From Gluconobacter japonicus (GTDB lineage Bacteria; Pseudomonadota; Alphaproteobacteria; Acetobacterales; Acetobacteraceae), in assembly GCF_002723975.1 (NCBI RefSeq), contig NZ_BEWO01000006.1:1-64000 (forward strand): a stretch of DNA of 64,000 bases, written 5' to 3'. Below are positions 222 through 45,834 of this stretch, piece by piece. Made by a program: the position numbers and the translations under genes. Within the stretch, counting starts at the first letter, position 1. Every line of letters begins with the position of its first letter. The notes beneath the pieces are model-generated. The model worked only from the letters and a program-made list of their open reading frames with translations, had not been told where the DNA came from and ran no database searches.

Positions 222-3200
222 GTGAACAAGTTTGATTTTTTTGTTTCATTTCCCCTCTGTGCAATTCTTCCAGAATCCTTAAAGCTGCATTCCGTGATTG
301 ATCATTCTTCCTGCACTCTTCCAGTTCACCAAGATCAGGCTCTGGCCGAACTGGCTTTCTTTCTCGCAGAAAAATCACAAGAGGCAGATAACAGCGCCTC
401 ACTGTCTGCATATGACGAGCAGGCCATACGCTTTCTATGCTGGCTCACTTTGTTCTTGGAGAAAAAGACGCGATCGAATCAGCCATTCATACGCCTATCC
501 AACGACTTGAACCGGAAAATTAGCCCCTCTCTTCAAAAATTTCAGAAAGATCTCATCCCAGATTTAAGAAATATCTTTTCTACTACACAAGAAAATGAAT
601 TTTCCCTTTCTTGTCATTACGATCATGAAGACATCCCAGATCAAACTTGTGCAAATACACTTGTCATAGGCCCTGAGTTCGACCCAAAGAAAGAGTTCAT
701 ATTTCTCTCAGACTGTCTGAATATCCGGATTTCTTCTCAGGATTCTGCACTTTCTTTTCTGAATGAAATATCTGAACCGGCCCATCGCTTTCGTCAAAAA
801 ATACGCCAGATTCTCGCCCACGATCTGGAAGGGCGCCAAGCCCAGAATGCACTCATTACAACAGTTCATACCCTCCAGAGAGCAGAAGAGACTACACGCG
901 CCCTTCGAATCAATACGCGTACCTCATTAAAAAATATTTCTAACCAAGAATCTGTTATTCAATCTCTATCTAAAAAATATCAACACATTCATTCAGAAAA
1001 TATTTCCCTTCATGAGAAGCTGAATGATATTCAAAAACAACTCGACAATACAAAACATCAACTCAAAATTTCTCTTTTTAGACAAGAAGAAATTGAAAAA
1101 TATTACACATACCTCCAACAGTCCTATGCGTCGTTCAACACAAAACTGGCACTAAGCCACCAAGCACTTGAAGCACTCAGAGACCTGCTTCACCGTCCTG
1201 CTCCTGTCTGGCGCAGACTTCTGAGAGCCCTGCGAACACCCTTTATACCTTACATACCAACGCTCCCCGAACCGCTGGTCCTACAAGATCTACCCTCACC
1301 CTCAACACCTTGCCTGTCCGACCCCATACCACCCGGCGCAGAAACCGCCTTCGTAGAGACGCTTCTGCCTTCTGACGAAGAATTCTCTTCTCCTGCTGCA
1401 ACACCGCGCATTCTCTTTGTTGCAGGCGAAGCCAACACTCCCGGCGTGACTTATCGCTGCTACCGCAACGCGGAAGCCGCACGCTGCGCCGGGTTTGAAG
1501 CTCGCGTTCAGGATTGTGCAAACGTCAGCTACGATGACATCTGCTGGGCAGACGTCATGATACTCTGGCGGGTAGAATACAGTGGGCATGTCAGCACAAT
1601 GCTTGATCTAGCCCAGCAGCAGAACGTCAAAACCATCTTCGACGCCGACGATATTGTTTTCGTTCCTCACTATGCCCGCATAGATCTGATTGACGGTATA
1701 AGGTCGATAGGAACAACCGAGGAAAGAATTGAACACTTCTTTACGGATGTTCGCCGCACCCTGATGCGCTGTGATCAGGGGTCAGCCACAACCCGGGAAC
1801 TCGCCCACGCGATGCACAAATTGCGACCGGTGGTACACATTCTTCCCAATACCTATGACAAAAACACTCTGCGCCGCTCCCGTCTAAATCGTCGCCTTCA
1901 AGAGGGACTTCACCTTTCCGCAGCAGGTGACACCCTCATTCGCATCGGATACGCCACAGGCACCAGAACACATCAGCGTGATTTTGCCATAGCCGCCCCT
2001 TCTATCGCATATGTTCTGTCACAGCGCCCAAACGTCAGACTCGTTCTGTTTCGGGAGAAAGCCAGTCAGTCCAGCATGCTCCTTCTGGAAGAGTTTCCAG
2101 AATTCCAAAACCTGAGCAGCCAGATCGAATGGCGGGAAACAGTTCCTCTCCCGGATCTTCCCGATGAATTCGGACGGTTTGATATTTCTATTGCCCCTCT
2201 CGAAGTCGGGAATGTCTTTTGCGAAGCAAAAAGCGAGATCAAGTTTCTGGAGGCCTCCCTTGCAGGAAGTGCTTCGATCGTCTCTCCAACAGGTCCGTTC
2301 AAACGTCTGGTTCGGCACGGCGAAACCGGCCTTCTTGCCGCAACCCCAGAAGAATGGACTGCCGCCCTTCTTTCGCTGGTTGATGACCCAGAACGACGGC
2401 AGCGCATGGCTCGTGATGCGTATCATGATGTACTGTGGCCCTTCAGCCCAGAGGCACAGACGCGACGCATAAGACTTGCCATCTCCTCACTACAAGGAGA
2501 CGAAGAAGCAGCCGAAGCTGGCGAACTGCTTCTTGCCCGCAAACATCTGGAGCATCGCCCTCTACCTGTCATTCCAGAAAACGAAACACTTTTTCATCAC
2601 GACGTTTTTGGAGAAGCTGACGTCACCGTCGTCATCACATCCTACAACTACGACAACTACATTCTGGATGCCTTGGATTCTGTCTCAGCTCAGACACTTT
2701 CTCAACTTGATCTGATTGTGGTTGATGACGGCTCAACAGATGGCTCCGTAGACCTGATACGCCTCTGGATGGAGCGAAATGTAACACGCTTCAACAGACT
2801 GATCCTGAAGCGCTCTCTCCGCAATGCCGGACTGGGAGGAGCACGAAACATTGGAATGGATACCGCAGAGACAGATTGCGTCATGCAACTGGATGCAGAC
2901 AATCTTCTGCGTCCGGATGCCTGCGAAACGCTTCACGCCGCTATGACATTCGGAATCGCGTACGCTTATCCCCTTATCCAGTGCTTCAACGAAAGTGGAC
3001 CGCTCCCACTTAGTCCTCAGGAAGTATCACCAGGCAGAGGCCCTTTTGCAGTTCTTGGCGACCTTCCCTTCAATCCGCTTTCGCTCGTCTCGGGAAACCG
3101 CGTGGATGCAATGGCAATGATTGCAAAATGGGCTTGGGCTGCCGCTGGCGGCTATTATGTTTCACGTGAAGCCATGGGATGGGAAGACTTTGATCTCTGG

Positions 3201-3392
3201 TGCACTTTAGCCGAACTTGGCCTGCCTGGCCGTCAGGTTCCAGCCATTCTGGCCGATTACCGCCAGCATACTTATTCCATGACAAATCTCTCTACGGAGC
3301 AGGCCGCTCATAAGGCGCGCGTCGTCAATTACGTCAAATCGCGTCACCCGTGGATTAATTTGACGGCAGAAGCCCCAGAACAACGCCTCTAA
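222..3392 (+). CDS. Bifunctional GT4-GT2 glycosyltransferase with coiled-coil region
   Basis: A 1056-residue protein beginning with GTG. Residues 1-190 are of unknown fold, about 190-325 form a heptad-rich coiled coil, about 395-740 resemble a GT4/GT-B glycosyltransferase (ILFVAGEANTPG, then FDADDIVF), and about 800-1056 are a GT2/GT-A domain with ITSYNYDNYI, VVDDGSTDGS and a DADN metal motif near residue 891. Such tandem enzymes usually build polysaccharide or glycan chains in the cytoplasm from nucleotide sugars. The first 900 bases are distinctly A+T-rich while the catalytic part is GC-rich, suggesting a spliced-on or fast-evolving N-terminus. There is no strong ribosome binding site, so the start is uncertain. 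Acceptor and sugar cannot be predicted. Confidence 0.85.
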   Translation: MNKFDFFVSFPLCAILPESLKLHSVIDHSSCTLPVHQDQALAELAFFLAEKSQEADNSASLSAYDEQAIRFLCWLTLFLEKKTRSNQPFIRLSNDLNRKISPSLQKFQKDLIPDLRNIFSTTQENEFSLSCHYDHEDIPDQTCANTLVIGPEFDPKKEFIFLSDCLNIRISSQDSALSFLNEISEPAHRFRQKIRQILAHDLEGRQAQNALITTVHTLQRAEETTRALRINTRTSLKNISNQESVIQSLSKKYQHIHSENISLHEKLNDIQKQLDNTKHQLKISLFRQEEIEKYYTYLQQSYASFNTKLALSHQALEALRDLLHRPAPVWRRLLRALRTPFIPYIPTLPEPLVLQDLPSPSTPCLSDPIPPGAETAFVETLLPSDEEFSSPAATPRILFVAGEANTPGVTYRCYRNAEAARCAGFEARVQDCANVSYDDICWADVMILWRVEYSGHVSTMLDLAQQQNVKTIFDADDIVFVPHYARIDLIDGIRSIGTTEERIEHFFTDVRRTLMRCDQGSATTRELAHAMHKLRPVVHILPNTYDKNTLRRSRLNRRLQEGLHLSAAGDTLIRIGYATGTRTHQRDFAIAAPSIAYVLSQRPNVRLVLFREKASQSSMLLLEEFPEFQNLSSQIEWRETVPLPDLPDEFGRFDISIAPLEVGNVFCEAKSEIKFLEASLAGSASIVSPTGPFKRLVRHGETGLLAATPEEWTAALLSLVDDPERRQRMARDAYHDVLWPFSPEAQTRRIRLAISSLQGDEEAAEAGELLLARKHLEHRPLPVIPENETLFHHDVFGEADVTVVITSYNYDNYILDALDSVSAQTLSQLDLIVVDDGSTDGSVDLIRLWMERNVTRFNRLILKRSLRNAGLGGARNIGMDTAETDCVMQLDADNLLRPDACETLHAAMTFGIAYAYPLIQCFNESGPLPLSPQEVSPGRGPFAVLGDLPFNPLSLVSGNRVDAMAMIAKWAWAAAGGYYVSREAMGWEDFDLWCTLAELGLPGRQVPAILADYRQHTYSMTNLSTEQAAHKARVVNYVKSRHPWINLTAEAPEQRL

Positions 3393-3410
3393 ACACTTTC
3401 CCGATGACAT

Positions 3411-3447
3411 AAAAAAACCCCGGACAGATTATCTGTCCGGGGTTTTT
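3411..3447. terminator. Bidirectional Rho-independent terminator
   Basis: An 11-bp perfect stem (CCCCGGACAGA pairing with TCTGTCCGGGG) with a 3-nt loop is flanked by A7 on the left and T5 on the right. It sits between the convergent glycosyltransferase and aldehyde dehydrogenase genes and can serve both. Confidence 0.92.
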
Positions 3448-3486
3448 CTGGTTGAATGGCCAGAGTTTCCCCTGACCATCACAACC

Positions 3487-4878
3487 TCAGAATGGAGCGT
3501 CGATATCAACAACGTCGATCAGCTTGTGATTGACGAATTCCTTGATCCCCAGACCGATCAGTTCACGACCGTATCCAGAACGGGCTACACCGCCGAACGG
3601 CAGATCAGCCTTCACCATCGTCGGGTGATTCACGTAAACCATACCCGTGTGGATCTTCTCGGCAACCTTCACGCCGCGAGCCGTATCCTTCGTGAAGACA
3701 GAGCCACCCAGACCAAACGGAGAGTCATTGGCAACGCGGATCGCCTCAGCCTCATCCTTCACACGATAAAGCTGGGTAACCGGACCGAAGAACTCCCAGT
3801 GACGGGCTTCATTGTCACCATGCAGGTTCGTCATCAGAAGCGGCTGGAAGAATGCTCCCTTCTCTGGAACAGGTGCACCGATCACTTCAACAACAGCGCC
3901 GTGCTTCTTGGCTTCTTCAACCTGAGCCTTCAGATCGTCAGCCGCCTTCTGCGAGGACAGGGGAGCCAACGTCGTGGACGGATCCATCGGATCGCCAGCC
4001 TTCAGCTTGGCAACCTCAGCCTTGTAGATCTCCAGGAACTGGTCGTAGACCGAATCTACAACAATCAGACGCTTGGACGACACGCAAACCTGACCAGCAT
4101 TCCAGTGACGGCCGAACGCAGCCCACTTGGCAGCCTTCTCAACGTCGGCATCTTCAAGAACCACGAACGCATCGGCACCGCCAAGTTCCATGGTGGCCTT
4201 CTTAAGCGCCTGACCTGCCGTGCTGGCAACAATGGCACCAGCTCCTTCAGAGCCTGTCAGAGCAACACCACAGACACGCGGGTCATTCAGGATCACAGCC
4301 GTATGATGACGGGCTGCATACAGGTTCTTGAACGCACCTTTCGGCAGGCCAGCTTCGATCATCAGATCATCGAAAATTGCCGCACACTGTGGAACGTTCG
4401 AAGCATGCTTCAGCAGAACCGTATTACCAGCAGAAAGCTGCGGCGCGATGATGCGGGCGATCTGGTAATACGGGAAGTTCCAGGGCTCGATCGCAAAAAC
4501 GATACCCTGCGGCTGATGGATCAGGATGGCTTCGCCTTCCTTCGGATCAGCAACCGGCAGCTTCTCTGGCTTCAAAAGCTCTTCAGCATTCTTGGCATAA
4601 TATTCGAAGATTTCAGCGGAGAGGATCGTCTCCAGCTTGGCTTCTTCATAAAGCTTGCCCATTTCAAGGGTCAGAAGCTTGGCATATTTATCAATATCGC
4701 GGCGCAGGATCGCACCAGCAGCACTCATGACCTTGGCGCGGTCTGCAAAAGACACATCGCGCCAGCTTTTGAAAGCCTCATACGCGTCAGTAATCGCCTG
4801 CTGAACTTCTTGGTCGGTTGCTTCCGGGAAAGTCTTCAGCGTCTCACCCGTATAAGGGTTGGTCGTAGCGTAAGCCAT
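3487..4878 (-). CDS. NAD(P)-dependent aldehyde dehydrogenase, succinate-semialdehyde-dehydrogenase-like
   Basis: A 463-residue member of the aldehyde dehydrogenase superfamily, which oxidises aldehydes to acids in the cytoplasm. Visible marks are the PWNFPYYQ cofactor region, the ELGG motif with the general-base glutamate and the AGQVCVSS segment with the catalytic cysteine. Length and sequence fit the succinate-semialdehyde branch, but the substrate is an inference. I chose ATG at 4878, preceded by GGAG at a good distance. A TTG nine bases upstream is also open but sits almost on that GGAG. The gene is monocistronic, ends at a shared bidirectional terminator, and is separated by about 110 bp from nadE on the other side. 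Confidence 0.9.
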   Translation of the reverse strand: MAYATTNPYTGETLKTFPEATDQEVQQAITDAYEAFKSWRDVSFADRAKVMSAAGAILRRDIDKYAKLLTLEMGKLYEEAKLETILSAEIFEYYAKNAEELLKPEKLPVADPKEGEAILIHQPQGIVFAIEPWNFPYYQIARIIAPQLSAGNTVLLKHASNVPQCAAIFDDLMIEAGLPKGAFKNLYAARHHTAVILNDPRVCGVALTGSEGAGAIVASTAGQALKKATMELGGADAFVVLEDADVEKAAKWAAFGRHWNAGQVCVSSKRLIVVDSVYDQFLEIYKAEVAKLKAGDPMDPSTTLAPLSSQKAADDLKAQVEEAKKHGAVVEVIGAPVPEKGAFFQPLLMTNLHGDNEARHWEFFGPVTQLYRVKDEAEAIRVANDSPFGLGGSVFTKDTARGVKVAEKIHTGMVYVNHPTMVKADLPFGGVARSGYGRELIGLGIKEFVNHKLIDVVDIDAPF

Positions 4879-18239: not shown

Positions 18240-18256
18240 CCATGGTGGAGCTGAGG
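18240..18256 (+). repeat. attL core repeat (17 bp)
   Basis: CCATGGTGGAGCTGAGG is identical to 31566-31582, where it covers the last 14 bases of tRNA-Ala including the encoded CCA. Here it stands 56 bp after the ArnT-like gene with no tRNA body beside it, which is the signature of a site-specific insertion. Confidence 0.9.
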
Positions 18257-18376
18257 TCCACCAAATCTATGTGTCTGGGCGTCTCTGGCACCACCATTAA
18301 GTCAATGTTTTCATAGGAATAATTTTCAGAACTATCCCATGACGTCCCTAGAAGTCTCCCATGATGCCATTTTTTA

Positions 18377-18411
18377 ACATGGGTTGGAACGTGGGTTTTC
18401 TATCATGGGTC
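18377..18411 (+). repeat. Integrase arm-type repeats, left
   Basis: Three direct copies of a 9-mer, ACATGGGTT (18377), ACGTGGGTT (18389) and TCATGGGTC (18403), lie between attL and the integrase start. The same motif recurs just inside attR. Their place and mutual spacing of 12-14 bp fit arm-binding sites of a tyrosine integrase, but this is inferred from position only. Confidence 0.5.
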
Positions 18412-18435
18412 GGATTTTCTAGGGTAGAATGGTGC

Positions 18436-19647
18436 ATGCCCAGAATCGCTTCAAACCGCCTAACCGCCCGAACCGTCGCCTCTCTCAAGGACGGAGTTTA
18501 TGGAGACGGAGGCAATCTATGGCTGACCATCAAAGGCAACGTCCGGGCATGGTCAGTCCGCTTCAAAAGCCCGATCACCGGGAAATCTCGTGAGATGGGC
18601 CTGGGCCCCGTCCGCGACGTGGGCTTGGCAGACGCTCGTCGTTTGGCAACAGAAGCCCGACACATGATAGCTGAAGGCTTGGATCCGATTGAAGAACGCA
18701 AGGCTGAGAAGGCCGCCCGAAAGCGTAAATCCGGACTGACTTTTGAGGACGTCGCTCGTCGATATATTCAGGAACAGACCCCCGCCTGGAAAGATCAGAG
18801 ATCGGCACCCGTCTGGACCAGTTCTCTCGAGATTCACGTTTTCCCCACTTTCGGAAAGAAGCTCGTATCTGCGGTCGATACAGATGACGTCCTGCACATC
18901 CTTCGCCCCATATGGACCGAGAAGACAGAGACCGCAGGCCGGGTCCGTGGACGGATTGAACGGATCCTGGACTATGCAAAGACCCATGGCTGGCGAGAGA
19001 GTGAGAACCCGGCAAGATGGAGAGGACACCTTTCCAATATCCTTCCCGCTCCTTCAAAGGTCGCCAAAGTTGAACATCATGCCGCAGTGGATCGGAAAGA
19101 CATCGCCCTAGTCATGGCTGCCCTCGCAGCATCAAATGGGCTTGCTGCCCAAGCCGTCCGGTTCTTGTGTCTGACTGCTGCCCGATCGGGTGAAGTCCGC
19201 TTTGCCACGTGGGATGAGATTGATCTGGAGCAGAAGATCTGGACAGTTCCAGCCGAACGCATGAAAGCCAAGCGGGAACATCGTGTCCCGTTAAGTGATG
19301 GTGCGCTGGAAATCCTGCAGGCTGTCTCCCCACTGCGCAATTCTCGCCAAGGCAACTTCATCTTCCCAGGGCAACAGCGGGGCAAAGCTCTAACAGACGT
19401 CGCTCTATCCAAGGCCCTTCACACAGCAGCCGGGACCAAAGATGTTACTGTCCATGGCCTGCGCTCTACCTTCAGAGACTGGGCGGCTGAAGAGACGGAT
19501 TTTCCTAGGGAGGTCGCCGAGATGGCGTTAGCACACGCCATTGGTGATAAAGTGGAGGCTGCTTACCGGCGTGGCGATTTATTTTCAAAACGACGAGCTT
19601 TAATGGAGAGTTGGGAGAATATAATTTACTATTGCCAAGTATCTTAA
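18436..19647 (+). CDS. Tyrosine-type site-specific integrase, DUF4102 N-terminus
   Basis: A 403-residue P4/tRNA-island type integrase. The N-terminal DUF4102 arm-binding domain (LTARTVASLKDGVYGDGGNLW) and a SAM-like core-binding domain precede the catalytic domain. Catalytic residues are visible: Arg in TAARSGEVRFATWDE, His-x-x-Arg in HGLRSTFRDWA and Tyr in EAAYRRGDLF. ATG at 18436 gives a normal N-terminus; an earlier in-frame ATG would run through the arm-type repeats. It should catalyse insertion into, and with an excisionase removal from, the tRNA-Ala gene. Confidence 0.95.
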   Translation: MPRIASNRLTARTVASLKDGVYGDGGNLWLTIKGNVRAWSVRFKSPITGKSREMGLGPVRDVGLADARRLATEARHMIAEGLDPIEERKAEKAARKRKSGLTFEDVARRYIQEQTPAWKDQRSAPVWTSSLEIHVFPTFGKKLVSAVDTDDVLHILRPIWTEKTETAGRVRGRIERILDYAKTHGWRESENPARWRGHLSNILPAPSKVAKVEHHAAVDRKDIALVMAALAASNGLAAQAVRFLCLTAARSGEVRFATWDEIDLEQKIWTVPAERMKAKREHRVPLSDGALEILQAVSPLRNSRQGNFIFPGQQRGKALTDVALSKALHTAAGTKDVTVHGLRSTFRDWAAEETDFPREVAEMALAHAIGDKVEAAYRRGDLFSKRRALMESWENIIYYCQVS

Positions 19648-21021: not shown

Positions 21022-21432
21022 TCAAAGTGGCATTTGCTCAAACTTTCCAGCTTTTCCCATAGGAAGCTTAAAAAGAGATCCGCCACCCACCTGACTGATA
21101 AAGGTTTCAATATCAGGCCATCGCCAAATCAAATTTGACGCGATCTGATGCACTGGTGTCTTTTGGTAACCGGGCGCCAAAACGAAACCTCGTAGCTTCG
21201 CTTGCCGGAACACAACACGTTCTGCTCGATTTTTCTGAATACGCCCATCGCCTGTGATGACAATCCAGTCATTACTTTCATTCTGAAGAAACGACATCCA
21301 CTCGACGTCGGACGCATGCCTTCCGCAAGGTAGGTCTCGAATATGGGTAGCTGAATGGTTTCTATGGTGAAGAAAGCCATTCAATGTTTCCGCCAAAACG
21401 GGAGACGTACAATTGTCGAAAAAAACTTTCAC
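21022..21432 (-). CDS. PIN-like toxin, VapC45 type
   Basis: A 136-residue protein starting MKVFFDNCTSP, with the first acidic residue at Asp6 and VITGDGRIQ as the second acidic motif, as in the PIN-like domain of the VapC45/DUF5615 group of predicted RNases. Its start overlaps the upstream gene by 4 bp (ATGA). The partner length (234 aa) and order match mycobacterial VapB45-VapC45. The toxin is expected to cleave RNA when freed from its antitoxin; that is inferred from family only. Confidence 0.65.
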   Translation of the reverse strand: MKVFFDNCTSPVLAETLNGFLHHRNHSATHIRDLPCGRHASDVEWMSFLQNESNDWIVITGDGRIQKNRAERVVFRQAKLRGFVLAPGYQKTPVHQIASNLIWRWPDIETFISQVGGGSLFKLPMGKAGKFEQMPL

Positions 21433-22133
21433 GCTGCAAGAGCAGGCTCAGAAAGTTTTTGCTCAAAGGCAACAGCCCGCCGTACTGCCCGAACCGGCAC
21501 ATCCCACATCTTAGCCACCAGCTCCACCGAACCTTCCGTACGGACAGCAGAAGCCAGATGCTCGGTCGGAACTGACGTCTCTTTCTCTATGGGCTTACCG
21601 AACGAACGAGCGGGATCAATCAGTACTCCTGCCTTTTCGCCTTGGGGCCACCATGCTGTGGGATAAATCCCGTCAAACTGAATATCCCGCAAACTGTCCT
21701 TCACAACCCGTGCAAAAGCATATTGGCTCCTGAACAGATCCAAGCATTCTGGCTCTCCGTCCTCTTCAGCCTCAGATTCAGCCACTTGAAGAAAAACTGA
21801 ACGACCGTCTGTTTTCAGCCATTTAGTCGCGAGCGGCCGCTCACCAACAACCTGTTGAGCGATTTCAATAGCTCGGCGTAGCTTCTTTGCACTCAGGCCA
21901 TTTTCGATAAAGCTGGATGCTACACGAGCCTCCAACATATCCCGGAAACTTAAGTATGCTTTGCCATCGTCTAGGTCGATTTCAGACTTCCACAATGGTG
22001 AATAATGCTTCCCATTTGCCTCATGGCCTTGAAGCCACCTACGAAGTTTGGCGGAGCGGACGTTGATCAAACGCCCAGCTTCGGCAGGCGTATATAGCCC
22101 TATGCCGACTAGGGTTTGAACGTTCTGGCTCAC
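21429..22133 (-). CDS. VapB45-like antitoxin with MerR-type DNA-binding head
   Basis: A 234-residue protein. GIGLYTPAEAGRLINVRSAKLRRWL near the N-terminus is a MerR-like helix-turn-helix. The middle has the DUF433-like element YLSFRDMLEARVASSFIENGLSAKKLRRAIE. The C-terminal helix region (VRTEGSVELVAKMWDVPVRAVRRAVAFEQ) looks like the toxin-neutralising DUF433 part. It precedes the PIN-like gene with an ATGA overlap, as expected for an antitoxin-first operon that represses its own promoter. It is cargo of the mobile element. Confidence 0.65.
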   Translation of the reverse strand: MSQNVQTLVGIGLYTPAEAGRLINVRSAKLRRWLQGHEANGKHYSPLWKSEIDLDDGKAYLSFRDMLEARVASSFIENGLSAKKLRRAIEIAQQVVGERPLATKWLKTDGRSVFLQVAESEAEEDGEPECLDLFRSQYAFARVVKDSLRDIQFDGIYPTAWWPQGEKAGVLIDPARSFGKPIEKETSVPTEHLASAVRTEGSVELVAKMWDVPVRAVRRAVAFEQKLSEPALAA

Positions 22134-24451: not shown

Positions 24452-24705
24452 TGGACGCCTCTTTCATTCCCGGCCTGCTCCACGCAGCTGAGATCTGCGA
24501 CCAGTTCGAGAACGAGAATTTTTCGATCTCGACGGAAAAAATGATGCTCCGGATGCAATATCCGGATCTGCAAGTACCTGGTGGCGATGGTTCTTGGTCC
24601 CTGTCCTTGTCAGACCATGAGCACATCCACTGTTGCAAGGCCCACGCCGCCCGCGAGATCGCAGCTTTCCTTCGCCGCCTCGTATCGGAAGGGAGCAAGT
24701 CATGA
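24451..24705 (+). CDS. Hypothetical protein preceding primase
   Basis: An 84-residue acidic protein. The start overlaps the previous stop by one base (TAATG) and its stop overlaps the primase start (ATGA). Two Cys and three His near LSDHEHIHCCKAHAAREI could bind metal, but the spacing does not match a known finger. Function unknown. Confidence 0.5.
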   Translation: MDASFIPGLLHAAEICDQFENENFSISTEKMMLRMQYPDLQVPGGDGSWSLSLSDHEHIHCCKAHAAREIAAFLRRLVSEGSKS

Positions 24706-25508
24706 GCGCCTCCCTCAAAGTGGAAACCCCTCTTCATGAGGAGGCAGCCCGCAAAGCTGCTATGCTCGCCCGGAGCCTTCCAGTCTTCCCTTGCCGTGAA
24801 GACAAGGCACCCGCATGCCGCAACGGGTTCAAAGACGCTGTACGAGGCGAGAAAGATGCTCTCGCACTATGGCGTCAGTGCCCAGGACCGCTCATCGGCG
24901 TTCCGACTGGTGTCTTTTCCGGTTTTGACGTTCTGGATCTCGACTTGCAGCACGCAGCGGCTGACGAATGGTATGGCGAGCACTGCACTCAGCTTGCCGG
25001 TCACCGGATGCAGCGCACGCGCTCGGGGGGCGTGCATCTCCTTTTCCAGCATCGCGAGGGTCTGCGGAACAGTGCCAGCAAACTCGCACGCGGCGTCGAT
25101 GTCAGGGCAGATGGCGGATACATCATCTGGTGGCCTGCTACAGGCTTGGAAATCATTGAACGGGTCCGTCCCCAGCTCTGGCCAGCCTGGCTGATCGAGG
25201 CCCTGACACCGGCACCACCCCCGAAAGCCGATCTATCAAAGATCGAGAACGGCCTGAAGGATGCGGACCGATATGCGGCCGGTGCCTTGCGTGCTGCCGT
25301 CCGGGCTGTTGCAGCAACCGGGCAAGGTGGCCGGAATGACCGCCTGAATGCAGAAACCTATTCCCTCGCCCGCTTCGTGCCTGAAGGATACCTGACTGTC
25401 AGCCAGATTGCGGAAGCCATGGCAGCAGCCGGACTGGAAGCGGGCCTCACGCCTCAGGAAATCCAAAAGACCATTGCGTCCGCGCTGAAATCGAGAGGTG
25501 TCATGTGA
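24702..25508 (+). CDS. Bifunctional DNA primase/polymerase (Prim-Pol)
   Basis: A 268-residue archaeo-eukaryotic-type primase. FPCREDKAPACRNGFKDA is the typical N-terminal strand. GVPTGVFSGFDVLDLD carries the metal-binding aspartates, RTRSGGVHLLFQHREG holds the conserved SGG-H segment, and ARGVDVRADGGYIIWWP completes the prim-pol domain. The last 60 residues (QGGRNDRLNAETYSLARFV) resemble the primase C-terminal helical domain. It should prime replication of the element. It is coupled by ATGA upstream and by GTGA to the helicase downstream. Confidence 0.9.
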   Translation: MSASLKVETPLHEEAARKAAMLARSLPVFPCREDKAPACRNGFKDAVRGEKDALALWRQCPGPLIGVPTGVFSGFDVLDLDLQHAAADEWYGEHCTQLAGHRMQRTRSGGVHLLFQHREGLRNSASKLARGVDVRADGGYIIWWPATGLEIIERVRPQLWPAWLIEALTPAPPPKADLSKIENGLKDADRYAAGALRAAVRAVAATGQGGRNDRLNAETYSLARFVPEGYLTVSQIAEAMAAAGLEAGLTPQEIQKTIASALKSRGVM

Positions 25509-26746
25509 GCACCACTCTGGACCAGATTGTTTCCGGCGCGACAGACAAAGCCGTCACTGCACAGCATCAGGCAAAGGAACGTGAGGCACTTGGTCCGGCA
25601 GGGAGCAAGGCGCTCCTGACATTCGATACTGACAACTGGCAGGAAAGCAGCATCCCCAAACGTCCGTGGGTTGCTCCTGGCTATCTTCTGCGCGGCGCTG
25701 TTACCGTAGTAGTCGGGGCGCCTGCAGCAGGTAAATCGAGCCTGATGGTTGGATGGGCAGCAGCGCTCGGACTGGGCTTGCGCTATGGGCGTATGCAGAC
25801 ACCGCCCCGCAAGGTCATGACCTACAATGTCGAGGATGACCGCGACGAGCAGCGCCGTCGTTTCTCAGGTGTCCTGCGATACATGGGCCGCACATCTGCG
25901 GATCTCCGACAGAACGTCATCCGGATCGGCACGGATGGTATCGGAACCCTGCTGACCATCGACCCGAATACACATGCCCTCATTCCCACAGAAGCCATGC
26001 ATCAGATGCTTCAGCAGATTGCCAGCATGCGCCCGGACGTCCTCATTCTGGATCCGCTAGTTGAGCTTCATGAGGCCGAGGAAAACGACAATACGGCCGT
26101 CCGCTCTGTCATGGCTTATTTCCGCAGTCTGGCAATCCGCTACGAGATGGCGGTTGTCCTGCTCCATCACACTCGTAAAGGCTCTTCAGCAACGGCTGGC
26201 GACCCTGACGTGGCACGCGGCGCATCGTCCGTCATCGGTGCTGCCCGTATCGTGCTGACAGTCACCGTCATGACCGAAGAGGAAGCCAATAACTTTGGGA
26301 TCAAGGCTGACCATCGGCGGTTCTTCTCCCGCGTTGATGGCGCCAAGATCAATGCCGCTCCAATCGGGACTGCTGAATGGTTCGAGCGGGAGTCACGCGA
26401 ATTGGACAACGGTGACATGGTGCCGGTCATGGTGCCCTGGTCCCCGCCGCATGACATGATCTCCATGGAGCAGATGGACGCTATCAAGGCAGGGATTGCG
26501 AAAGGCAGCCCGACCGGTCCGTGGAGCCCGAAGCTTTCAAAGGATGCCCGGTCTGTGAAACGCCTTCTGAGTGAGAGCGGTGTCAGCACTGCTGAAGGGC
26601 AACGGAAGGTTCTGGACGAACTGATGTGTGCCGGGTTCGTAGCAGCAACATTCAAACGCGGAGATAACCGGGTCAAAGCACAAGGCCTACGTGCTCCTGA
26701 CGGCTCGCCTGGTAACGTACATTGGCTTTCAGGCGAAGACACATGA
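25505..26746 (+). CDS. RepA/DnaB-like replicative helicase ATPase
   Basis: A 413-residue RecA-fold ATPase. Walker A is VVGAPAAGKSS (about residue 69-79), Walker B is PDVLILDPLVELHEAEEND, and VVLLHHTRKG is the sensor histidine motif, as in hexameric RepA-type helicases and the AAA_25 family. The C-terminal 100 residues may be a winged helix (KRLLSESGVSTAEGQRKVLDELMCAGFV). It starts with GTG overlapping the primase stop. Primase plus helicase form a self-contained replication module placed directly upstream of the repeat-rich gap. Confidence 0.9.
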   Translation: MSTTLDQIVSGATDKAVTAQHQAKEREALGPAGSKALLTFDTDNWQESSIPKRPWVAPGYLLRGAVTVVVGAPAAGKSSLMVGWAAALGLGLRYGRMQTPPRKVMTYNVEDDRDEQRRRFSGVLRYMGRTSADLRQNVIRIGTDGIGTLLTIDPNTHALIPTEAMHQMLQQIASMRPDVLILDPLVELHEAEENDNTAVRSVMAYFRSLAIRYEMAVVLLHHTRKGSSATAGDPDVARGASSVIGAARIVLTVTVMTEEEANNFGIKADHRRFFSRVDGAKINAAPIGTAEWFERESRELDNGDMVPVMVPWSPPHDMISMEQMDAIKAGIAKGSPTGPWSPKLSKDARSVKRLLSESGVSTAEGQRKVLDELMCAGFVAATFKRGDNRVKAQGLRAPDGSPGNVHWLSGEDT

Positions 26747-26860
26747 TCCATGCATCTTCCATGCAAGATCCATGCATGCATGGATGTCGGAACCCTATAG
26801 GGGAGATGACCCATGCATGCGGGTCACTCACCCTTGCGGGTTCCGTGCAGGATCCATGCG
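26745..26860. repeat. Tandem 11-bp repeats and palindromes after the helicase gene
   Basis: CCATGCA-centred units occur at 26745, 26756 and 26767, exactly 11 bp apart (consensus gATCCATGCAt), then as a perfect 18-bp palindrome ATCCATGCATGCATGGAT (26768-26785), a near-palindrome GACCCATGCATGCGGGTC (26808-26825) and a last unit at 26851. The cluster begins on the helicase stop codon. It looks like a protein-binding array, perhaps for replication or copy control. Confidence 0.7.
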
Positions 26861-26930
26861 GTAGCAGTTGTATCTTAGGGGGGAGACACCGCCCTCTCAC
26901 GGCAGCGAAATACCCATTTGGGATTTCCCA

Positions 26931-27074
26931 CAATGTCATACAGATCGGCCGTAATGTCCTACACAGACCCATCCGGACATTTCCAAAATGTCTTACACCG
27001 CCCACTTAATGTTTTACCCGTTACGGATATCCAACATCCCATAATGTTTTACCCAGGTAGACTTTTTGTTTTAC
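26931..27074 (+). repeat. Six-iteron array, candidate replication origin
   Basis: Six 11-mers of consensus wAATGTYYTAC start at 26931, 26952, 26986, 27007, 27042 and 27064. They form three pairs with 21-22 bp between members and about 55-57 bp from pair to pair, all in the same orientation. The last is degenerate at its 5' end. Such phased direct repeats downstream of primase and helicase genes are the hallmark of a theta-type origin. No other gene fits the 930-bp gap around it. Confidence 0.7.
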
Positions 27075-27137
27075 CGAAAAGGGGAGTAACGGGGGGACCA
27101 ACCTTTGCCCGAGCAGCACGTTGAAACGGAGGTGGCT

Positions 27138-27182
27138 ATGCAAGAGAGAGAATTCTGCAGGACGCCTTGTTTGAAGGGCTGA
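27138..27182 (+). CDS. Possible 14-codon leader peptide
   Basis: A strong ribosome binding site (ACGGAGGTGGCT) is followed by ATG and 14 codons ending in TGA. It is the only gene-like signal in the repeat-rich gap between helicase and resolvase. It may be a leader peptide or the relic of a longer gene. Apart from it and the repeats, I see nothing convincing in 27183-27530. Confidence 0.2.
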   Translation: MQEREFCRTPCLKG

Positions 27183-27533
27183 ATTGATCTTCAGGATGAG
27201 GAAGAAAAGAGACCCTTCCGCTCTCAAAAATCGTCTGCCTCATTTTTCGCGGCCGAAGACGAAATTTCGAAAACCTGGGCGCCCTGCCCTGCACCTGCAT
27301 GGTCAGCCACACTTCGTACGCGCGGCGCCCAATCTACGTCTTTCACGCGCCCATCATGCCCGAGCAATTTAGCGCCATGCGAGCGTGCGTGGGAGCATAT
27401 TGTGCGGACGAAATTCGTACACAGTCAGTTTTGCTCACTTTTAAGCCGTCCCGATCCGGACACCCGATTACATTTTCCCAATCAAGTAAAAACATAACGA
27501 TCTTGCCTCCTGATCCCTCAGGACGTCTCCCGT

Positions 27534-27662
27534 TGTCCTAAAAGGCAAGCTCATTTGGGACATGAGAACGATGGGACAAAATGACGGAAAGTCCTTGTCC
27601 TATGAAATTATGTTTGACTTTTGAGACGGCATCAATCTAGGGTCTAAGGGATTTTTAGGACA
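27534..27662. promoter_or_regulatory. Candidate res site / resolvase operator
   Basis: TGTCCTAAA (27534) and TTTGGGACA (ending 27562) form a 29-bp inverted-repeat site much like site I of Tn3-family resolvases. TGTCCTATG (27596) with GAGAC (27623-27627) and a GTCTAAG...TAGGACA pair (ending 27662) could be sites II and III. All lie directly upstream of the serine recombinase gene, as in Tn3-type res. Confidence 0.5.
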
Positions 27663-27673
27663 TGAGGCCCGCT

Positions 27674-28240
27674 ATGAAGATTGGATATGCCCGCGTTTCG
27701 ACGGTTGATCAGGATGCCGGACTGGAAGCCCAGATCCGGGATTTGAAGGCAGCCGGATGCGAGAAAGTCTTTGCTGAGAAGATCAGTGGCAAGGATGCAA
27801 AGCGCCCTGAACTGCTGGCTGCGCTTGAGTTTATCCGTGCTGGTGACGTGCTGGTGGTGACGAAGCCCGACCGCATGGCGCGCTCAACGGCTGACCTGCT
27901 GGCCTACGTTGAAGCATTGAAGACCAAGGGGTGCGGCCTGATTGTCCTGTCAATGAATGGGACAACGCTCGATACGACAAGCCCCACTTCAAAGCTGATG
28001 CTGACTATGCTTGCAGCGGTGGCAGAGTTTGAGCGTGACCTGATGCTAGAACGTCAACGGGAAGGCATCGCCAAGGCGCGCCAGGAAGGCAAATACAAGG
28101 GCCGCCCTCGAACGGTCATGTCCCAGGCTGAGACCATCCGCAGGATGAAGGCTGACGGCCTCTCGGCGGCTGCAATCGCCAAGGAACTAGGAATTGCACG
28201 GTCTGGCGTCTATCGGGCATTGGAGTCAAATAATTCATAA
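27674..28240 (+). CDS. Serine recombinase, resolvase/invertase family
   Basis: A 188-residue small serine recombinase. GYARVSTVDQDAGLEAQI holds the catalytic serine (RVS). KPDRMARSTADL and EFERDLMLERQREGIAKAR are the conserved arginine and dimer-helix regions, and the C-terminal MKADGLSAAAIAKELGIARSGVYRAL is the Hin-like DNA-binding helix-turn-helix. ATG at 27674 has GAGG at good spacing. It could resolve replicated multimers of the element at the adjacent res-like site, which fits an element that replicates extrachromosomally. Confidence 0.92.
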   Translation: MKIGYARVSTVDQDAGLEAQIRDLKAAGCEKVFAEKISGKDAKRPELLAALEFIRAGDVLVVTKPDRMARSTADLLAYVEALKTKGCGLIVLSMNGTTLDTTSPTSKLMLTMLAAVAEFERDLMLERQREGIAKARQEGKYKGRPRTVMSQAETIRRMKADGLSAAAIAKELGIARSGVYRALESNNS

Positions 28241-28305: not shown

Positions 28306-28560
28306 ATGAAGGCGAAACACTGTCTCGATAGACTCCCCCTCATGCAAATCATGAATGGGACACACCCCGATATGACAGACTGCATTTCAATGCAGGAAGC
28401 GGCGCGCCGCATCAGCATCTCTAAATCTACCTTGGAAAGACTTCTTGCCAGCGGGCGAGGACCTGAGACTTTCCGTGTTGGGCGCCGTCGCCTGATCCGC
28501 ATTGAGCATCTTAACGTCTGGCTCAAAAATCAGGGCGCCGTGATGGTAGGTGCGGCATGA
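28306..28560 (+). CDS. Excisionase-like helix-turn-helix protein, third copy
   Basis: Up to 84 residues; starts at 28351 or 28372 are equally possible, since none has a clear ribosome binding site. The domain MQEAARRISISKSTLERLLASGRGPETFRVGRRRLIRIEHLNVWL is a DNA-binding HTH_17/excisionase module and more distant from the other two AlpA-like proteins of the element. It overlaps the next gene by ATGA and heads the terminase gene set, so it may control packaging gene expression or excision. Confidence 0.7.
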   Translation: MKAKHCLDRLPLMQIMNGTHPDMTDCISMQEAARRISISKSTLERLLASGRGPETFRVGRRRLIRIEHLNVWLKNQGAVMVGAA

Positions 28561-29452: not shown

Positions 29453-29950
29453 ATGGGCCGCCAATGCACTATCTGCGCGCACCCCCTGGTCCGCGACATT
29501 GACCGCGCTTTGATTGATCCTCACCGGACCTATCTGAGCGTGGCAGAGGCGTTTCCTGGCACTCATGCCAAGGCTTTAGAGCGTCACCACAAGACCCACT
29601 TGATTCCGCGTTTGCAAAAGGTCGACGGACTCCGGCAGGGCGACGCAGAAGAGGCCATTGGCTTACTTGCTCAGATGGATGATCTGCGCGAACGGGCCAT
29701 GAAGCTGTTGAAACAGGCTGAAGACGGCGGAAACACCCGAACGGCACTAGCTGCCGTAAAAGAAATCCGGGGCGTTCTCGACAGTCTTGCCCGCATCACC
29801 GGCGAAGGCACACGCACAGGCACGGTGATCAACGTCTTCAATGCGCCTGCCTGGGTCAATGTGCAGACGAATATCCTGACGGCTCTGACACCCTTTCCCG
29901 AGGCACGCGCTGCTGTAGTGAAGGCATTGGCGCAGACAGAGCATGATTGA
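29453..29950 (+). CDS. Small terminase subunit-like protein
   Basis: A 165-residue protein. The N-terminus has a CTICAHP-x-H knuckle-like start and DRALIDPHRTYLSVAEAFPGTHAKALERHH, a helix-turn-helix for DNA recognition. The centre is a coiled-coil-prone helix (EEAIGLLAQMDDLRERAMKLLKQAEDGG). Size, architecture and position directly before the terminase ATPase, with an 8-bp overlap, fit a TerS that selects pac or cos DNA. The annotation rests on context and general features. Confidence 0.6.
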   Translation: MGRQCTICAHPLVRDIDRALIDPHRTYLSVAEAFPGTHAKALERHHKTHLIPRLQKVDGLRQGDAEEAIGLLAQMDDLRERAMKLLKQAEDGGNTRTALAAVKEIRGVLDSLARITGEGTRTGTVINVFNAPAWVNVQTNILTALTPFPEARAAVVKALAQTEHD

Positions 29951-30722
29951 AGCTGACATTAATCGCGAACTGGTCCACGCGCTCGACCCGGTAGCATTCG
30001 CAGTCGAGCGCCTTGGTTTCACGCCTGACCCTTGGCAGGAACGCGTCCTCCGCTCAAACAGCAATCGCATTCTACTCAACTGCACCCGTCAGGCTGGTAA
30101 GACCACCATCACGGCAGTTCTCAGCCTGCATACGGCCATTTATCAACCGCGATCCCTCATTCTTCTTTTCAGTAAAGCGCAACGCCAGTCCTCGGAGCTA
30201 TTGGCCAAGATCCACGGCTACATAAATACCATGGAAAGGCCACCTCTCCTGACGAAAGAGGCCGCAACTGAAATCCGCCTAAAGAACGGCTCCCGTGTCG
30301 TCTCTCTTCCTGGAGACGGGGACAGCATCCGCGGCTATTCCGCCCCCAACCTCATTGTTGAAGACGAAGCCGCATTCGTCACCGATGAGCTTTACGAAGC
30401 CTTTCTCCCAATGCTTGCCACCAGCAATGGGCGCCTGATCCTCATGAGCACCCCAAATGGTAAACGTGGTCACTTTCATGCAGCTTGGTCAGGCATGAAC
30501 ACGAAGTGGCAGCGGGAAAGCATCACCGCCAGCCAGGTCTCGCGCATCAGCCCGGAATACCTTGAAGACATGCGCGCTGAATACGGCCCCTGGAAATTCC
30601 AGCAGGAGTTCTTCTGCAAATTCGTGGAGGCCAACGACCAGTTCTTCTCTGATGAAGCCATTGAGCGCGCCTTTTCCCGACAGGTTCCTCTTCTCTCCCT
30701 CAATTTCGAGATCCCTGCATGA
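29943..30722 (+). CDS. Large terminase, ATPase domain as separate gene
   Basis: A 259-residue protein equal to the N-terminal motor half of phage TerL. PDPWQERVLRS is the adenine-binding Q motif, LLNCTRQAGKTTI the Walker A, LIVEDEAAFV the Walker B with catalytic glutamate, and LMSTPNGKRGHFH the coupling motif III. It ends at LNFEIPA just where the linker to the nuclease should be. The stop overlaps the next start by 4 bp (ATGA). DNA translocation into a procapsid powered by ATP is the family function. Confidence 0.85.
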   Translation: MIEADINRELVHALDPVAFAVERLGFTPDPWQERVLRSNSNRILLNCTRQAGKTTITAVLSLHTAIYQPRSLILLFSKAQRQSSELLAKIHGYINTMERPPLLTKEAATEIRLKNGSRVVSLPGDGDSIRGYSAPNLIVEDEAAFVTDELYEAFLPMLATSNGRLILMSTPNGKRGHFHAAWSGMNTKWQRESITASQVSRISPEYLEDMRAEYGPWKFQQEFFCKFVEANDQFFSDEAIERAFSRQVPLLSLNFEIPA

Positions 30723-31447
30723 CGAACAATTTGCTTCGAGATCAGTTGATCGAAGACCGGTACGAAATCACTCCGGGCAGCCTGTCCGGCTATACGGTCG
30801 GACTGGATCTGGGGAAGTCACAGGATTTCACAGCCATCAGCATTGCCGAGGCCTGGAAGTGTGAGCGACTCCGGTGGCAGAAAACGCGCTTTCAGCCTAT
30901 GGCAGAAATTGCCTCTCGACGACCGGTCAATCGTTACCGGGTTGTGAATGTCCGACGATACCCTCGTGGTACGCCTTATCCTGATATCTATCGCTCGGTT
31001 CAGTCGATCCTTGCGCAACTTCCTGCCGCCCCCATGGCTCCGTCGCTCTTTGTCGACCGCACAGGAGTAGGCGGCCCTGTAGTAGACGCCATGCGGGAGA
31101 TGGGCATTGCTCTAACCGGCATATCTATTACCGGAGGAAGCAGAATCAATCGCGTGTCGTCTCAGGACGTGAACGTGCCAAAAGCGCTGCTCGCTTCCAG
31201 CCTGGACATTGCTTTTGCTGAAGACCGATTGGAACTGACATCGGAGGCCGAAGCGTCTGACGCTCTACGAGCTGAGTTACAAGGCTTCCGAGTCAAGAAG
31301 ACATCGCATGGCAACGAAACCATGGAAGCCTGGCGTGAAGGAATCCATGACGATCTGGTCCTGGCGACCGCAATGGCTATCTGGGGCGCAGATAACCGGC
31401 CTCAGCCTGCGACTTGGAGACCAACGTCTTTTACGATTGGACGATAA
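30719..31447 (+). CDS. Large terminase, RNase H-fold nuclease domain as separate gene
   Basis: A 242-residue protein equal to the C-terminal nuclease half of TerL. SGYTVGLDLGKSQDFTAI gives the first metal-binding aspartate, APSLFVDRTGVGGPVVD the second acidic strand, and IHDDLVLATAMAIWGAD the final catalytic aspartates. It starts with its own ATG on the stop codon of the ATPase gene in another frame, so the enzyme is made as two chains. It cuts concatemeric DNA during packaging in related phages. It is the last element gene before attR. Confidence 0.82.
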   Translation: MTNNLLRDQLIEDRYEITPGSLSGYTVGLDLGKSQDFTAISIAEAWKCERLRWQKTRFQPMAEIASRRPVNRYRVVNVRRYPRGTPYPDIYRSVQSILAQLPAAPMAPSLFVDRTGVGGPVVDAMREMGIALTGISITGGSRINRVSSQDVNVPKALLASSLDIAFAEDRLELTSEAEASDALRAELQGFRVKKTSHGNETMEAWREGIHDDLVLATAMAIWGADNRPQPATWRPTSFTIGR

Positions 31448-31565: not shown

Positions 31566-31582
31566 CCATGGTGGAGCTGAGG
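31566..31582 (+). repeat. attR core repeat (17 bp) within tRNA-Ala
   Basis: CCATGGTGGAGCTGAGG, identical to 18240-18256. Read on the minus strand it is the 3' end of tRNA-Ala with the acceptor strand and CCA plus three flanking bases, so insertion leaves the tRNA intact. Confidence 0.9.
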
Positions 31583-31644
31583 GGAATCGAACCCCTGACC
31601 TTCTCATTGCGAACGAGGCGCTCTCCCAACTGAGCTACAGCCCC
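31569..31644 (-). tRNA. tRNA-Ala, anticodon CGC
   Basis: The 76-nt cloverleaf reads GGGGCTG as 5' acceptor strand and CAGCTCC-ACCA at the 3' end, with the G3-U70 pair that identifies alanine tRNAs. The D arm is GCTC...GAGC, the anticodon loop TTCGCAA gives CGC (codon GCG), and the T arm is AGGGG-TTCGAAT-CCCCT. CCA is encoded. The anticodon stem has one C-A mismatch at 27-43. Its 3' end is the target of the mobile element. Confidence 0.95.
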
Positions 31645-45510: not shown

Positions 45511-45577
45511 AGGGTAGGTCCGGCCCGGTCAAAACATGAAGGTGCAGACGCACCCGGAGTTTCCGGAATACGCCGCC

Positions 45578-45735
45578 CCTTCTGTCCTTTTGCCTGAGAT
45601 CGCTATCCCGTCGGCGGGTACGTCAGGCGCACCTCTCTCCAGAATTTACCGACCAACTCGGTCCTTTGGCCTGAGAGTTTCCGGGGCGGTTGCTCCTTCG
45701 GCGCCAGCTCTAAAAGCTGGTCTCTCCCGTATTGG
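45578..45735 (-). ncRNA. Tandem glycine riboswitch of the gcv operon
   Basis: On the minus strand two aptamers follow each other. The first has CGGGAGAGAC, GCCGAAGGAGCAAC, GGAAACTCTCAGGC and CAAAGGACCG. The second has CTGGAGAGAGG, CCGACGGGATAGCG, ATCTCAGGC and AAAAGGACAG. These are the conserved cores of the gcvT-type riboswitch, linked by a short spacer. It should turn on gcvT-gcvH-gcvP when glycine is abundant. The expression platform between 45511 and 45577 contains no obvious strong intrinsic terminator, so control of translation initiation is likely. Confidence 0.95.
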
Positions 45736-45834
45736 TCGGACTTAATCCTGCCAGTTTCCCAATTTCTTCGCAATCGTTACGATCTGTTCCGCGTTACGAT
45801 TTCTGGACATTTTTAGACTTTGAAAGGAGCCACA

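Follow-up and report, generated by a model that had tools for sequence, protein, structure and literature searches.

A predicted two-gene large terminase, with separate motor and nuclease genes, in a satellite-like element of Gluconobacter japonicus

Is a large terminase (TerL) that reads as two overlapping genes a broken enzyme or a genuinely divided one? In the textbook TerL, motor and cutter form one chain and are joined by a linker. In the window analysed here, that is, the whole 64,000-nucleotide stretch of a Gluconobacter japonicus contig, the motor half is encoded at 29943..30722 (+) as an ASCE ATPase of 259 aa with an ATG start and without a nuclease domain, and the nuclease half at 30719..31447 (+) as an RNase H-like protein of 242 aa with its own ATG. 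According to the ORF map, the stop codon of the motor ORF and the start codon of the nuclease ORF share a 4-base overlap, ATGA, and the frames differ; the two domains of a TerL are not on one polypeptide here, and likewise in 80 of the 144 ATPase-domain ORFs of the survey described below. A sequence-only reading had proposed both the division into an ATPase and a nuclease gene and the second start codon overlapping the first stop in another frame, and the gene assignments and ORF coordinates bear it out on either point. On sequence grounds, the locus can be taken as a two-gene large terminase, its predicted motor and an intact RuvC/RNase H-like nuclease being encoded separately.

What identifies the first gene as a TerL motor? 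The alignment of motor halves shows conserved Walker A (R49, Q50, G52, K53) and Walker B (D141, E142) residues along with S169-T170-P171, matching the Walker A, Walker B and motif III read off the sequence earlier; the ASCE ATPase of a TerL, coupling motif included, is thus complete. The window copy matches Terminase_6N in Pfam (1.6e-10) and phrog_7579, ‘terminase large subunit’, in PHROGs (2.6e-55), and the motor family profile matches the P74-26 and T4 gp17 ATPases at about 6e-21. Its AlphaFold model (mean pLDDT 91.5) has the T4 gp17 ATPase 2o0j as the top Foldseek match (E 3.2e-15, rmsd 2.5).

The nuclease half is recognised less directly. As a single sequence, the window copy had no match of its own in Pfam, and NCBIfam returned none for five of five copies tested; of 57 nuclease halves aligned together, 32 matched Terminase_6C, and the window copy was not one of these. 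In PHROGs, the window copy matches phrog_27743, ‘unknown function’, at 2.7e-36, and both PHROG profiles matched by the pair are about half a TerL long (239 positions for phrog_7579, 233 for phrog_27743). Compared with single-chain terminases, the nuclease family profile matches the whole domain of the solved G20c/P74-26 TerL nucleases (5m1f, 5tge; about 2e-16), so that each half aligns to its counterpart in fused TerLs, as the sequence-only reading would have it. Foldseek ranks the G20c TerL nuclease 5m1o first for the AlphaFold model (mean pLDDT 91.2; E 3.1e-8), with a high rmsd of 9.9 over 213 columns despite a probability of 1.00, and also ranks a Thermus RuvC (E 8.7e-3). The acidic RNase H-type motifs expected in the second frame are all there (D30, D113, D211/D212); the three essential acidic positions of a TerL nuclease are hence present, but on a separate chain. 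None of the 81 distinct nuclease ORFs deviates at D113, G116 or K155; all 80 that extend far enough have D212, and 78 of 81 have D30, the exceptions being the broken copy of L002 and one copy each of the tandem pairs in L067 and L118. With 17 of 21 pairs usable, the ATPase half had a median dN/dS (NG86) of 0.09; the nuclease half, with 13 usable out of 21, had a median of 0.13. Both values are only rough because the other pairs were saturated. By these estimates both genes are under purifying selection, and the low dN/dS places the conservation of both halves beyond chance.

How far does the split extend? We took distinct ATPase sequences as the survey unit, with the window included (as L017) and one place counted twice (L084/L088). 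The 144 distinct ATPase-domain ORFs comprise 80 split, 57 fused and 7 unclassified cases, the last being six without a detected nuclease and one cut ORF. Residues left past the end of the ATPase profile are distributed bimodally, with 0–34 in the 80 split and 162–261 in the 57 fused ORFs. Left out of the survey were MMP17 (ATPase part identical to that of MMP7) and L055/L056 (under the E-value cut). The six ORFs without a detected nuclease include MMP7, truncated where its record stops; L146, which by eye has a nuclease ORF missed by the distance rule; and L151, in which, again by eye, the motor is followed by a separate nuclease of another Terminase_6C subfamily (3696-4292). L151 thereby represents a second kind of split. 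In L114, another of the six, a motor half (2869-3729) had no nuclease ORF recognised downstream. The sampling was seeded: a scan started from the nuclease yielded 25 split and 0 fused ORFs, and one started from fused TerLs yielded 23 split against 49 fused. The split and fused counts are therefore no frequencies. Nuclease matches amounted to 10/397 in the family genome sample (several of them fragments or weak), 7/385 in the class sample (three of them weak and in long fused-looking frames) and 11/398 in the phylum sample. Used as the only query, the window nuclease gave no match in an initial scan of viral sequences; alignments were needed to find relatives.

The closest comparisons come from seven Acetobacteraceae loci (L001-L006, L009), and a search of these related elements for the same split found the motor as a separate ORF in all seven. 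In six of them (L001-L006) a further ORF lies between the halves, whereas L009 has a 15-bp gap. The interposed ORFs are 100-146 aa long and fall into two unrelated families by clustering; those of L005 and L006 had no database match that would give them a family name. In the Acetobacter sicerae element (L002, 3848-4640), a break leaves the nuclease half in two frames of its own. Beyond the family, split TerLs occur in a Rhodospirillales assembly (L007) and other families of Pseudomonadota, in many viral contigs, on plasmids (three of Salinibacter ruber, one of Streptomyces virginiae, one of Rhodobacteraceae) and in an archaeal Methanoregulaceae assembly (L008), which may be mis-binned since the assembly is uncultured. 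Across 79 pairs, motor distances correlate with nuclease distances (r 0.68, a value reached in 0 of 2000 permutations), as expected if the two genes travel together, and r falls to 0.42 for pairs with motor identities <60%. With nuclease start codons picked by rule, the nuclease starts in the -1 frame relative to the motor in 50 of 78 pairs, in +1 in 18 and in the same frame in 10; the 4-base overlap recurs in 30 pairs, and in 21 the nuclease starts >150 bp downstream.

Could a terL that is normally fused nevertheless have been broken here by a private frameshift or a sequencing error, or could this be a decayed prophage remnant? The nearest isolate-phage TerLs are indeed fused (Riverbug, 417 aa; MMP17, 415 aa), and L002 offers an example of a nuclease half in decay. 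Set against these are the 80 split ORFs out of 144, the low dN/dS of motor and nuclease, and the ORF interposed between the halves in six of the seven Acetobacteraceae loci. Had all relatives been fused, the site would pass for a private frameshift; the seven relatives with a separate ATPase ORF, together with the survey, refute this at the family level, and we consider the whole explanation very improbable. As far as sequences can tell, the split TerL is old and conserved and carries no sign of a private frameshift. The earlier description of a designed split thus keeps its core, a genuine two-gene form that relatives share in their separate ATPase ORFs, while ‘designed’ gives way to ‘evolutionarily conserved’. 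A related idea is that a fused TerL is still made from both genes, by programmed frameshifting or stop read-through, for which the same 4-base overlap in 30 of 78 pairs, the window among them, might speak. The three frame relations (50/18/10), the 21 pairs whose nuclease starts >150 bp downstream and the many nuclease genes that have their own start codon past the motor stop all argue the other way, leaving this route only a slim chance.

Self-splicing introns or inteins could also join the halves, as described for Jug phages in the accessible text of PMC12363816. Some pairs do have hundreds of bases between the halves, and the ATPase gene of L051 carries a long insert. Rfam, in turn, placed no intron family above the gathering score in the window or in 11 loci; the group I or II intron that would part the fragments of an intron-split terL is lacking, and in the window the genes overlap and therefore leave no room for one, which excludes an intron between the halves of this pair and makes splicing in general hardly credible. 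In the 841-aa motor gene of L051 (6214-8736), an insert of about 400 residues, perhaps an intein, separates the early ATPase motifs from the later ones. A last alternative would retire the pair from packaging: the motor would be a relic, and the nuclease would serve elsewhere, for instance against other phages or in the resolution of replication intermediates. This would fit the window element without recognised capsid genes, the Thermus RuvC among the Foldseek matches (E 8.7e-3) and the nuclease-type ORF in G753, where the 3.6-kb locus fetched holds no motor ORF. Yet Walker and nuclease residues are conserved, the motor is under strong purifying selection, and in several viral contigs the pair stands directly ahead of portal and capsid genes; we regard retirement as unlikely. 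The G753 nuclease-half ORF lies at 1501-2130 of its locus (L066).

A two-gene terminase that probably acts in packaging is the reading we carry forward. How did it arise? In a 104-row tree, from which ten rows had been dropped (eight flagged as long or odd, plus close partners) and near-duplicates thinned, parsimony with HGTV-1-like fused TerLs as the root required four changes: one split, at a node of 94 rows with support 100/97, and three re-fusions, namely Riverbug with L100, L135, and 25 L010-like rows. The number and direction of these events are provisional because the bootstrap is unsettled, the root is a choice and the rooted set came out as not monophyletic in a test of the chosen outgroup. 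A first tree of 139 rows, with several long branches, had needed seven split/fused changes and was set aside; in it, two fused rows joined the Acetobacteraceae on a branch of 4.8, which we took for an artefact. When aligned to the split nuclease family by hhalign, the nuclease domain of the Riverbug group scored 99.7 and that of the outgroup 99.8, compared with 5.3 for that of the L010-like clade, which is also a Terminase_6C domain by Pfam. As the L010-like nuclease barely matches the split family, the motor there has apparently re-fused with a different cutter. Provisionally, the simplest history would be one split and three re-fusions, one of them with a different nuclease subfamily.

What kind of element carries the pair? 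Direct 17-bp, att-like repeats at 18240..18256 and 31566..31582 bound a 13.3-kb, tRNA-integrated element, the right repeat overlapping the 3′ end of tRNA-Ala(cgc) (31569-31644, -). A tRNA gene also follows the pair in 4 of 11 Rfam-scanned loci (L003, L005, L009, L022). Hand-picked ORFs, chosen without a gene caller, include a tyrosine integrase (18361..19647, +), a Prim-Pol primase/polymerase (24633..25508, +), an AAA_25 ATPase that is likely the replicative helicase (25505..26746, +) and a serine resolvase/invertase (27662..28240, +), the last three by Pfam and PHROGs. The same databases identify an HTH_17 excisionase-like regulator (28306..28560, +) that also matches a small-terminase PHROG weakly (E 0.005); further genes encode a methyltransferase and an S24-like repressor. 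Portal, capsid and tail families had no match among 18 ORFs (Pfam) or 17 (PHROGs), a scan that a very divergent capsid gene could escape. With att repeats, an integrase, its own replication genes and no capsid genes within the 18 ORFs scanned, the integrated element has the make-up of a phage satellite, and it is this lack of a recognised portal, capsid or tail gene that leads us to call it satellite-like. Directly upstream of the motor lies a CxxC protein of 165 aa (29453..29950, +) that matches nothing in Pfam, PHROGs or NCBIfam. It is homologous to gp33, which lies upstream of TerL in Thermus phage Riverbug, and has homologues in 26 of the 47 loci compared; because of its position, it is a candidate small terminase.

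Elsewhere, the pair is found in capsid-poor as well as capsid-bearing settings. By annotation, the 11.2- and 14.9-kb Salinibacter plasmids and the 16.3-kb Streptomyces plasmid have no gene named portal or capsid, and on the Salinibacter and Streptomyces plasmids seen, the nuclease half is annotated ‘hypothetical protein’. With this label and no NCBIfam match, the nuclease half will be missed by terminase surveys, and plasmids and islands with a split TerL may be overlooked satellites. Two small Salinibacter plasmids encode tape-measure-like proteins (L096, 7132-9018; L097, 9641-11467). In some viral contigs, the pair precedes genes for portal and capsid, which come in at least three kinds: a Mu gp29/Riverbug-like portal (L029, L034, L046), a T7-type connector with a GP7-like capsid (tested for L040; homologues in L033, L039 and L054) and an SPP1-like portal (tested for L061; homologues in L035, L058, L059 and L063). 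Three loci carry tandem nuclease genes behind a single motor (L067, 890-2139, -; L118, 3766-4974; L098, 5178-6436); one copy is without the motif I aspartate in L067 and in L118, and both keep D30 in L098 (pSR31).

How might such an enzyme work? The CxxC protein would mark the element DNA, and the separate nuclease, bound non-covalently to the motor, would make the initiating cut; motor subunits would then ring up at the portal and pump DNA, and the nuclease, rejoining or having stayed, would make the terminal cut. The ATGA stop/start overlap probably couples nuclease translation to that of the motor. By this packaging route, the satellite-like element may use a terminase of its own to fill helper-phage procapsids with its DNA. 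Taken as a whole, a two-gene TerL with this packaging route and satellite-like use is the best explanation at hand, and we think it probably correct. A wider proposal we make tentatively, with slightly more doubt than belief: a widespread, so far unnoticed class of modular terminases, with motor and cutter as free subunits, may be common to uncultured phages, where it goes with three or more portal types, and to satellites and plasmids without capsid genes in Pseudomonadota, Rhodothermota and Actinomycetota. Some members would have two cutters, one of them catalytically dead (L067, L118), cutters would have been swapped and re-fused more than once, and the capsid-less carriers would be satellites that commandeer helper procapsids with a complete terminase of their own.

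A candidate helper is found in the same genome: contig C8 (L180) carries a myophage-type prophage with a single-ORF TerL, portal, major head protein, sheath and baseplate wedge. Its role as the helper is a guess, since the window element had no blastp match to it. Matches to the C8 prophage were confined to three of the nine elements compared, all three of them sister elements with homologues of its tail genes (L009, 42% over 298 aa; L002, 37% over 364 aa; L003, three ORFs). Portal profiles PF05136 and PF04860 had no match in the window's own genome, although the portal of the C8 prophage belongs to a different family; PF06074 had none there either, but its controls matched nowhere, and PF04860 had none in 8 records. 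Given the other portal family of C8, such negatives do not show absence.

Among known motors, the phi29-type packaging ATPase likewise lacks an active attached nuclease. There the likeness ends, as an active-looking TerL nuclease is encoded next door here; in the accessible text of PMC7617512, the phi29-type motor is called simply the ATPase. The TerLs of Thermus phages G20c/P74-26 and Riverbug share ATPase fold, nuclease fold and catalytic motifs with the window pair, and Riverbug has the CxxC gene upstream too. Riverbug TerL is, however, one polypeptide of 417 aa, and G20c TerL is described, in the source text available, as a full-length protein with both domains, as against two chains in the window. 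Jug phage terL also lies in separate ORFs; according to the accessible part of PMC12363816, it is split by group I introns and restored by splicing, whereas here the Rfam scan of the window and 11 loci gave no intron, and the genes often overlap. Capsid-forming PICIs and the Streptomyces satellites Mulch/Flayer carry both terminase subunits, as the satellite-like window element may; in contrast to that element, where neither was recognised, they also encode a portal and a (major) capsid protein, and the available text of PMC10690885 mentions no split TerL. The N4-type two-subunit RNA polymerase, in what we could access of PMC5418858, is a phage enzyme likewise permanently divided, with genes adjacent or spaced; as a different enzyme, it is a parallel only.

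We also searched 50,697 isolate-phage records with five nuclease halves as queries. The window and L030 copies matched only the fused TerL of Riverbug, L040 matched 11 records, most of them from G20c-like Thermus phages, and L061 and L096 matched none of these records. In the literature searched, which mostly excludes subscription journals and was accessible in part, we found no account of a two-gene TerL family, the sole ‘split terL’ met there being the intron-made one (PMC12363816). PHROGs holds the halves as two families, one of them of ‘unknown function’; they are thus known as sequences, and were not found described as a two-gene terminase. One T4 model, in the accessible text of PMC7617512, has the nuclease domain grip and move DNA. 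A natural TerL family without the covalent link would permit a direct test of whether pumping needs the linker, and would also let one test the number of cutters per motor ring and the timing of cutting.

Other features of the window may be recorded here. Within the element, a PIN_10 gene with a weak DUF433 partner (21022-22133, -) likely forms a toxin-antitoxin-like pair, and about 0.9 kb (26747-27661) is without an assigned gene. Outside the element, tandem glycine riboswitch aptamers lie at 45572-45739 (-).
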